Below the pieces are notes generated by a model, which saw only the letters and a program-made list of their open reading frames with translations, was not told the DNA's origin and ran no database searches. 49,551 nt of DNA from Armatimonadota bacterium (GTDB taxonomy: Bacteria; Armatimonadota; Fimbriimonadia; Fimbriimonadales; Fimbriimonadaceae): the NCBI GenBank assembly GCA_020438215.1, contig JAGQUX010000021.1, positions 1 to 49,551 of the forward strand. The letters are read 5' to 3'. Shown here piece by piece: positions 1,202-29,666 of the stretch; position 1 is the stretch's first letter, and each line of letters starts with the position of its first letter. Both the position numbers and the translations under genes were made by a program.

Positions 1202-1960
1202 ATGAGCCTCATCCCTCAGTTTTCTGATGTCAAAGCGGTCTATTTTGATCTTGATGACACGCTCTGTGCGTATTGGGATGCGGCGAAGTATGGGCTCCGG
1301 CGGGCGTTCAACGATCACCCAGAACATGGCTACACCGAAGAGCAGCTCTTAGCGCAGTGGTCAATTGCGTTTCGGGAGTTTGTCGAGACGATTGGCAAGA
1401 CGCACTGGTACGAAAAGTATCTCACCAGCGGGGAAATCACTCGCGCAGAATTGATGCGCCGCACATTAGAAAGACTTGGCATTTACGATGACGAGTTAGC
1501 ATATCGACTTTCTCATACTTATCATGTTGAGAGGCAAGCGGCGCTGATTCTCTTTGATGAGGCCTTACCAGTCATTAAGGTTCTTGCCCCAGATTATCAT
1601 TTGGGTTTGATCACTAACGGCCCGGCGGATATTCAAAGACAAGAGATTGAGAAACTCCAGATTGCTGAGTATTTCCCCCATGTTTTTATTGAAGGGGAAA
1701 TGGGATTTGGTAAACCGAATCCAAAAGTGTTTGAACTCGCGCAGGAATCGGTTGGGGTAGAGCCACACGAGATCCTTTTTGTTGGGAATAGCTACAAGCA
1801 CGACTTCCTACCTGCGCTTGAAGCGGGATGGCGCACAGCATGGATTCGGCGGGATTCCGACGTTGCGCCCAGTTCACGCACGGGCAAACCAGAAGAAAAG
1901 CCGGAAGATGGTCCGGAACCGGACATCACGATCTACTCGCTCAACGATTTGATCGCTTAA
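1202..1960 (+). CDS. HAD-superfamily hydrolase (YjjG/NANP-like phosphatase)
   Basis: 252-aa cytoplasmic HAD phosphatase. Motif I is FDLDDT near residues 16-21 with both catalytic aspartates, motif II is LITNGP, the motif III lysine lies in GFGKPNP, and motif IV is FVGNSYKHD. The insert after motif I is an alpha-helical cap (C1 type). The order of motifs and the TNG motif resemble YjjG-type nucleotide phosphatases and N-acylneuraminate-9-phosphatases, but the substrate cannot be read from sequence. The start lies 3 nt after the trpS stop, which suggests one operon. The stop abuts the stop of the convergent DUF151 gene with no spacer. Confidence 0.88.
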   Translation: MSLIPQFSDVKAVYFDLDDTLCAYWDAAKYGLRRAFNDHPEHGYTEEQLLAQWSIAFREFVETIGKTHWYEKYLTSGEITRAELMRRTLERLGIYDDELAYRLSHTYHVERQAALILFDEALPVIKVLAPDYHLGLITNGPADIQRQEIEKLQIAEYFPHVFIEGEMGFGKPNPKVFELAQESVGVEPHEILFVGNSYKHDFLPALEAGWRTAWIRRDSDVAPSSRTGKPEEKPEDGPEPDITIYSLNDLIA

Positions 1961-28246: not shown

Positions 28247-28275
28247 TTGCAATTTGAAAGAAAAATTCCTATACT
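28247..28275 (+). promoter_or_regulatory. Sigma-70 type promoter upstream of poly-C locus
   Basis: -35 TTGCAA (28247-28252), 17-nt spacer, -10 TATACT (28270-28275), in an AT-rich 150-nt region between gatB and the Cys-rich gene. Transcription would start near 28282 and run through the SD GGGAG (28304-28308), the uORF and the poly-C tract. Confidence 0.65.
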
Positions 28276-28314
28276 ACGAAATAGTGCAGTAAATATTCTG
28301 CTCGGGAGACAAAA

Positions 28315-28344
28315 ATGAATACTACCCCCCCCCCCCCGCAATAG
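28315..28344 (+). CDS. Short upstream ORF containing the poly-C tract
   Basis: ATG 28315 has a good SD (GGGAG, 6 nt upstream) and reads a 9-residue peptide, MNTTPPPPQ, then TAG, with the tract at 13 C. With 12 C the same frame continues without a stop into the Cys-rich protein (16-residue extension before its Met at 28364). With 14 C it ends at a TAA just before that Met. It therefore behaves as a possible translational switch or leader rather than a separate functional peptide. Confidence 0.5.
   Translation: MNTTPPPPQ
28325..28337 (+). repeat. Homopolymeric poly-C tract (13 C)
   Basis: Thirteen consecutive C residues lie just inside an ATG-started frame. Tracts of this length slip during replication, and the read length is also error-prone in assemblies. 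Confidence 0.9.
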
Positions 28345-28363
28345 TTCAGCGAAGGTAATCCGA

Positions 28364-28651
28364 ATGTTTACTACTGGGCTGCTCTGCGCGTTAGTACTGT
28401 TATTAGCAACACCAGGCAGAGCTGCATTCATTGCTTGCAACAAACTCATTTGCAACTCCAGTAAGTCTTGCTCAACGATTGCACTCTACGCTATCGTTCC
28501 AAACCCCGGGTACACATGCGGATTCAATTTGGTGCCATCAAGTTGCTCATTGTGGAACACACATGTGCTTTGCACCACTGTCAAATACTACGACCTTTGC
28601 GAAGAAGATCCTTACAGCGTGACTTACAACTACACAGACACGTGTAGTTAA
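28364..28651 (+). CDS. Small secreted cysteine-rich protein
   Basis: 95 aa. A strong signal peptide (MFTTGLLCALVLLLATPGRA) precedes a mature part of about 75 residues with eight cysteines spaced as in disulfide-rich secreted peptides (ACNKLIC, KSC, YTC, SSC, VLC, DLC, TC at the end). No family recognised. It has its own possible SD, GAAGG 8 nt before ATG 28364, but may also be translated from ATG 28315 when the poly-C tract has 12 C. The gene is AT-richer than its neighbours. The gene 17 nt downstream encodes a membrane-anchored protein, likely its partner. Confidence 0.68.
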   Translation: MFTTGLLCALVLLLATPGRAAFIACNKLICNSSKSCSTIALYAIVPNPGYTCGFNLVPSSCSLWNTHVLCTTVKYYDLCEEDPYSVTYNYTDTCS

Positions 28652-28668: not shown

Positions 28669-29622
28669 ATGAAAAACATATCAATCATCTGCCTAGCTTT
28701 ATTAGCTTTGTCAACAGCTGCATTCGCCCAAAGCCAGGACTTACGCTTGCACTTACAAGACGTAAAGGGAAAAGTGAATTCTGGCCTTACGCTTACTGTA
28801 GTAGAGGAATACCCTGACGATACACGCTACCGACGCATTTATGTTGAGGACGGGTTTATTCGATCTGACACAATCGTCAAATATGAAGCTGGTGCTCCGC
28901 TTCAAAATCCGCAAGTTGCATTCGATATTTACCAAAACGGTAGTACCCGTACAGGTGCAGCAAAGCTTGAAGGCATCTTCTCAAATCCAAGTGAAGTTCT
29001 TGACCAAATGGTAGCCTTGCCTTCGCCTACTTCGCGCTCTACTATTTCAGAAGGACGCTCAGTAGAGTCGCTAGTATTGAAGCTATATGGATATGGAAGC
29101 ACTTCACTAACAGATATTGTTGAAAGAGCACGAAATCAGCAGATTTTCGAACCGAGCCACATTTTTGTTTCAGAGAGGGTTAATATTGCTGACGAGCGCA
29201 CTCTCGATTTGGAGTGGCAGCCAGGAAACCTTGCGCTCTCTAAAGTGACTCAGGCAATTAGAGATTCGGGAGGCGCAATCATCAGCACGAATACTATTGG
29301 GGAAAGTCCAGACTACTCCAATCACGATCGGGTGTATAATGTATCAATAAGCCACCCTCAGCTTGGCGTTCAAAATCGAAAAATAAAGATCTTGAACGAA
29401 GAATGGGGAGCTATCCCTGATAGAGTCAAATCGTTCCAGCTTTCAGAGAGCTCACGAACTTTTGAAAACGATAAAGTTTTTGATATTGTTCAGGGACAAA
29501 AGGTACTTGCAAAAGACCCCAGCAAAGCTGAAAAAGTTTATGCTCCGCTAATCTTCGCCCTTGTGGGTGCAGCTACAACTGCTGTCGCGAGCCTAACCAT
29601 ACGAGCTTGGAAGAGGCGATAA
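28669..29622 (+). CDS. Secreted protein with C-terminal membrane anchor, unknown family
   Basis: 317 aa. An N-terminal signal peptide (NISIICLALLALSTAAFAQ) and a C-terminal transmembrane segment followed by positive charges (PLIFALVGAATTAVASL then RAWKRR) give an outside-facing protein anchored at its C-terminus. The mature domain is beta/alpha mixed, with no family I recognise. The SD is AGGGAAGAG before ATG 28669. It is co-transcribed with the Cys-rich gene and ends at a clear hairpin terminator (29632-29659). AT-rich base use compared with gatB and the nuo genes suggests recent acquisition. Confidence 0.72.
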   Translation: MKNISIICLALLALSTAAFAQSQDLRLHLQDVKGKVNSGLTLTVVEEYPDDTRYRRIYVEDGFIRSDTIVKYEAGAPLQNPQVAFDIYQNGSTRTGAAKLEGIFSNPSEVLDQMVALPSPTSRSTISEGRSVESLVLKLYGYGSTSLTDIVERARNQQIFEPSHIFVSERVNIADERTLDLEWQPGNLALSKVTQAIRDSGGAIISTNTIGESPDYSNHDRVYNVSISHPQLGVQNRKIKILNEEWGAIPDRVKSFQLSESSRTFENDKVFDIVQGQKVLAKDPSKAEKVYAPLIFALVGAATTAVASLTIRAWKRR

Positions 29623-29631
29623 TTGTGACTA

Positions 29632-29666
29632 TGCCTGCCTTCCATATAGGAGGCAGGCAACTTTTG
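29632..29666 (+). terminator. Rho-independent terminator of the Cys-rich operon
   Basis: TGCCTGCCT (29632-29640) pairs with AGGCAGGCA (29651-29659) around a 10-nt loop and is followed by ACTTTTG. It closes the two-gene unit. Confidence 0.7.

Follow-up and report, generated by a model that had tools for sequence, protein, structure and literature searches.

A tract of 13 C residues (C13) at positions 28325-28337 on the + strand of the window, the whole 49,551-nucleotide stretch of Armatimonadota, probably Fimbriimonadaceae, DNA that was analysed, probably constitutes a translational contingency (phase-variation) locus that has been assembled in its unfused phase. The proposal, made in an earlier note from the letters of the DNA, was that slippage in this tract varies the start of a small secreted protein. 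It is now supported, albeit indirectly, by a tract that is far longer than expected and is coupled to both a start codon and a signal peptide. In related genomes, C/G tracts are strongly enriched in the promoter spacers of signal-peptide genes and moderately enriched within signal-peptide codons, and this evidence from the wider lineage argues in the same direction.

The tract begins 10 nt past the A of an ATG at 28315, leaving 7 nt between the start codon and the first C, and this ATG is preceded at a distance of 6 nt by a Shine-Dalgarno (SD)-like GGAG (28305..28308, + strand). When reading frames are computed for all tract lengths from 9 to 17 C, a one-base change in length toggles the frame between the full product and an early stop. 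With 9, 12 or 15 C, ATG 28315 is fused in frame to a downstream Cys-rich ORF, giving products of 110-112 aa. With 10, 13 or 16 C, translation stops after 8-10 codons, and the assembled 13-C form encodes a leader ORF, MNTTPPPPQ (28315..28344, + strand), that terminates at TAG 28342; at 12 C the same codons become the start of a 111-aa fusion. With 11, 14 or 17 C, the stop falls after 13-15 codons at TAA 28356, the 14-C product being MNTTPPPPAIVQRR, and this stop is located just 5' of a second ATG at 28364. The second ATG is separated from the end of the early stop codon by 5 nt in the 14-C form and by 19 nt in the 13-C form, and has an SD-like AAGG of its own 8 nt upstream (28352..28355, + strand). 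The tract, ATG 28315, its SD (in the form GGAG) and TAG 28342 had all been described previously and are confirmed in the sequence, and the frame counts given for 12, 13 and 14 C are correct by computation. The description of the locus as AT-rich holds in relative terms only, at about 44-47% GC against 47-57% in the surrounding DNA.

The ORF that begins at the second ATG (28364..28651, + strand) encodes a 95-aa Cys-rich, predicted secreted protein with a putative signal peptide, MFTTGLLCALVLLLATPGRA, and eight Cys in its mature part. This protein appears to be an orphan: no relatives were found in 40 related genomes, in 84,980 species genomes (where only close relatives would have been picked up), in viral contigs, phages, plasmids, Pfam, NCBIfam or PDB sequences, or among ~9,200 ORFs near tracts in related genomes. 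AlphaFold2 run on the single sequence returned a pLDDT of 47, an unusable model. Only 17 nt downstream is a gene for a 317-aa protein (28669..29622, + strand), which combines a signal peptide with a C-terminal hydrophobic segment plus RR, and a terminator-like hairpin of 11 pairs, seven of them G-C (29632..29659, + strand), closes the unit. This close spacing, together with the hairpin that follows, has the appearance of a two-gene transcript, and the 95-aa and 317-aa genes are probably co-transcribed. Across the 40 related genomes the 317-aa protein has a single, distant relative that shares 26-28% identity with it; this occurs in another member of the family (L005) and was not seen beside a Cys-rich partner. 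Whilst gatB and its TPR neighbour are conserved in three relatives, the genes at 28.2-31.0 kb are not found beside them there, which indicates that the locus is accessory and that these relatives offer no orthologous tract for comparison.

C13 is the sole C/G run of at least 12 bases in the 2.64-Mb draft genome (119 contigs), and distinct C/G runs of at least 8 bases number only seven (lengths 8, 8, 8, 8, 8, 11 and 13). Dinucleotide shuffles of the window yield 1.8 eight-base matches per 50 kb, so that the genome contains fewer such runs than the shuffles predict; against this general depletion of long runs, the two longest are conspicuous. The length of C13 is beyond chance for its genome. 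This scarcity also bears on the possibility that translation proceeds from ATG 28364 only, in which case the tract would be no more than a neutral stretch of the 5' leader and the ATG ahead of it a coincidence. The AAGG ahead of 28364 is in keeping with such an arrangement, as is the absence of any general enrichment for an SD and ATG followed by poly-C. SD use in the window is also weak (7 of 24 genes, against a background of 16%), and the SDs of both start codons consequently carry little weight. However, such runs are rare elsewhere in the genome, an SD-bearing ATG at most 13 nt upstream is expected at about one position in a hundred (1.1% of window positions), and the arrangement of poly-C within the n-region of a signal peptide recurs in relatives, all of which make initiation from 28364 alone improbable.

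Upstream of ATG 28315, a promoter, TTGCAA-N17-TATACT (28247..28275, + strand), had been put forward in the earlier note and is indeed recovered as a putative sigma70 site by a consensus scan with 9 of 12 matches, but sites of this type are no more numerous in the region than in shuffled sequence (2 found, 2.7 expected), which leaves the promoter part of the proposal weak. A further explanation would make the 13-C form a regulatory leader of stable length, whose four-proline peptide stalls ribosomes in an EF-P-dependent manner and thereby governs the downstream genes. Although MNTTPPPPQ does have its own start, the leader shows no RNA structure above shuffles (z 0.38) and no Rfam match, the sole Rfam match being a tRNA elsewhere, and a stable leader would have no need of a slippery homopolymer; this reading is regarded as very unlikely.

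The phase-variable interpretation draws further on a sample of 200 interior C/G runs of at least 10 bases from this genome and its relatives, which were fetched regardless of promoters and do not represent a full census. Runs at most 200 nt from a locus end were excluded from the statistics, and the rules for signal peptides and promoters, which are crude and were made for this analysis, were applied identically to the null sets. The combination of a tract acting as promoter spacer, an ATG within 35 nt and an N-terminal hydrophobic (signal-like) segment was found for 14 of the 200 runs, compared with 3 of 4616 random positions (0.065%) in the same DNA. Thirteen of these 14 tracts are G and one is C on the sense strand. 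The spacers in this class vary between 12 and 24 nt, the kind of spread that promoters caught partly in the on state and partly in the off state should show. One of the 14 lies in the genome that carries C13, on contig C54 (L037, locus positions 1501-1511, minus strand), where TTGACA-AAAAC-G11-T-GATAAT provides a spacer of 17 nt and an ATG 7 nt past the -10 opens a 91-aa Cys-containing predicted secreted protein; this G11 tract is a candidate promoter phase switch in its on state. In one sister species, the promoters of two loci 1.6 kb apart (L046 and L047) are near-duplicates, with flanks that are 83-95% identical and homologous starts, but one carries 9 G and the other 17 G, a difference that would be a direct sign of change in tract length.

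A search of 85 family genomes with the poly-G promoter-spacer pattern gave 26 matches, against 2 for the reversed pattern, and nearly all of the 26 (L062-L087) lead to an ATG, mostly 4-11 nt past the -10, and then to a signal-like ORF. The layout of these genes is near-leaderless, many of the ORFs are small and several contain 8-12 Cys. Among the matches listed from all genome contigs, the motif occurs in many phyla, so this lineage is not alone in having poly-G promoter spacers. In several relatives, long C/G runs are also present at the ends of contigs, where they could be artefacts of assembly; one sister species contig end (L057, locus positions 1433-1509) holds a run of 44 G/C together with other long runs. 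Family promoters often consist of a G tract followed by TAGNNT, and the minus strand of C13 reads G13-TAGTAT, which could suggest that the tract is itself a promoter spacer switching the gatB side. No -35/-10 pair surrounds C13 on either strand, and the minus-strand reading was rejected when no -35-like hexamer was found at 16-18 nt spacing with the tract set to each length between 9 and 16. Moreover, gatB, the nearest minus-strand gene, is a housekeeping gene about 150 nt away, in contrast to the short distances typical of the family promoters, and a role in its control is most improbable.

Tracts within coding sequence form a second class, to which C13 would belong. Allowing the assembled length or a change of one base in either direction, 30 of the 200 runs fall within the first 45 codons of a signal-peptide ORF. 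The matched null gave 7.1%, with a maximum of 9.5% among 20 replicates, which implies that about half of the 30 are probably real. The more specific layout, in which poly-C at most 12 codons from the ATG is followed by basic residues and then by a hydrophobic core, is present in 7 of the 200 against 1.8 expected (6 against 1.8 without the C13 locus), although this test was picked after examples had been seen and its strength is somewhat overstated. The group is small, and perhaps two of the seven arose by chance. In two members, the first Met past the tract comes only after 43 (L354) and 39 (L392) residues, so that neither has one in the first 38 and both need the upstream start or an unusual one. 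When the signal-peptide condition is dropped, an SD and ATG followed by poly-C show no enrichment over the reversed control in the family; what carries the argument is thus the layout of the signal peptide rather than a general association with start codons. Tract-bearing genes include those for RHS-repeat, PA14 and Ig-like proteins. In L377, L268 and L345, C/G tracts are situated in or beside the signal peptide of RHS-repeat, PA14 and FlgD-Ig-like proteins.

Six of the seven n-region tracts are out of frame as assembled. Homopolymer length errors are common in assemblies, and the window is one contig of a draft genome in 119 pieces. The gene could accordingly start at 28315 on a chromosome with 12 (or 15) C and a stable polyproline n-region, the 13 C being a consensus or sequencing error, and the more typical signal peptide of the fused form is in agreement with this. 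Nevertheless, comparable tracts leave several relatives out of frame, long ORFs among them, so the error would have to recur across many assemblies, and a 12-C tract would itself be expected to be unstable. On balance, a simple length error is unlikely.

Under the phase-variation model, replication slippage would produce cells that differ in the length of the C tract, and so in which of three states the locus occupies. With 12 or 15 C, ribosomes starting at 28315 would produce the pre-protein MNTTPPP(P)RNSSAKVIRMFTTGLLCALVLLLATPGRA..., whose signal peptide has a basic n-region in which Arg, Lys and Arg precede the hydrophobic core. At 13 or 14 C, only a short proline-rich peptide would be made from this start, and the sole source of the protein would be ATG 28364, used either through direct initiation or through reinitiation, for which the 14-C stop would be near enough. 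The signal peptide from ATG 28364 has no Lys or Arg before its core; 6 of 25 promoter-class signal peptides likewise lack Lys/Arg in their first seven residues, so that this start alone could work. As ATG 28364 carries its own SD, slippage is likely to alter the start, the n-region and the yield, together with export efficiency, rather than to act as an absolute on/off switch. The suggestion in the earlier note that the tract tunes expression instead of switching it fully is sound in this respect, since ATG 28364 has its AAGG at the right distance and lies shortly past both early stops. The 317-aa gene downstream may follow these changes through translational coupling or polarity. It is also possible, and is proposed here tentatively, that the family operates a broad contingency programme on its secreted proteins that combines poly-G promoter spacers, placed ahead of near-leaderless signal-peptide genes, with C/G tracts in signal-peptide codons, and in which C13 would represent a dual-start form that swaps the n-region instead of silencing the gene.

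Phase variation at simple repeats has mostly been studied in host-adapted pathogens. In this case, the same devices turn up repeatedly where secreted and surface proteins begin, in a phylum that is little known and apparently environmental. This suggests that the pressure is exerted by phages, predators or competitors and not by host immunity. No earlier report of phase variation in Armatimonadota was found in the literature searched, and the words phase variation and homopolymer are absent from the Fimbriimonas ginsengisoli genome paper (PMC4072686). The Armatimonadota tracts provide a testable set of loci, and reads that already exist would allow their lengths to be counted directly.

Homopolymer frame switching near a start codon is an established device, of which the C13 locus would be a further example, with a dual-start twist and an Armatimonadota setting. 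In Listeria inlA, a change in the length of a poly-A tract truncates the product after 8 residues and reverts at a measurable frequency (Orsi et al. 2010, PMC2831843), whilst Helicobacter canadensis, with its poly-G genes, has tracts in both promoters and 5' coding regions (PMC2823697) and the length of a C tract alters transcription from the Bordetella fim promoters (PMC1891110). In common with inlA, the C13 tract is positioned just inside the frame, where a one-base change either ends translation early (after 8 aa in inlA and 9 aa here) or restores the frame. Unlike inlA and the H. canadensis genes, the C13 locus has a second, SD-bearing ATG a short way downstream and in frame with the Cys-rich protein, so that its off phase may still give a shorter pre-protein, and its tract is poly-C within the n-region of a signal peptide in the phylum Armatimonadota. 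The poly-G tracts of the relatives and the G11 tract of contig C54 resemble the Bordetella fim and H. canadensis promoters in being located between the -35 and -10 elements. In contrast to Bordetella fim, C13 itself is not a promoter spacer, and the promoters of this Armatimonadota family lead directly into signal-peptide genes, most of which are small.
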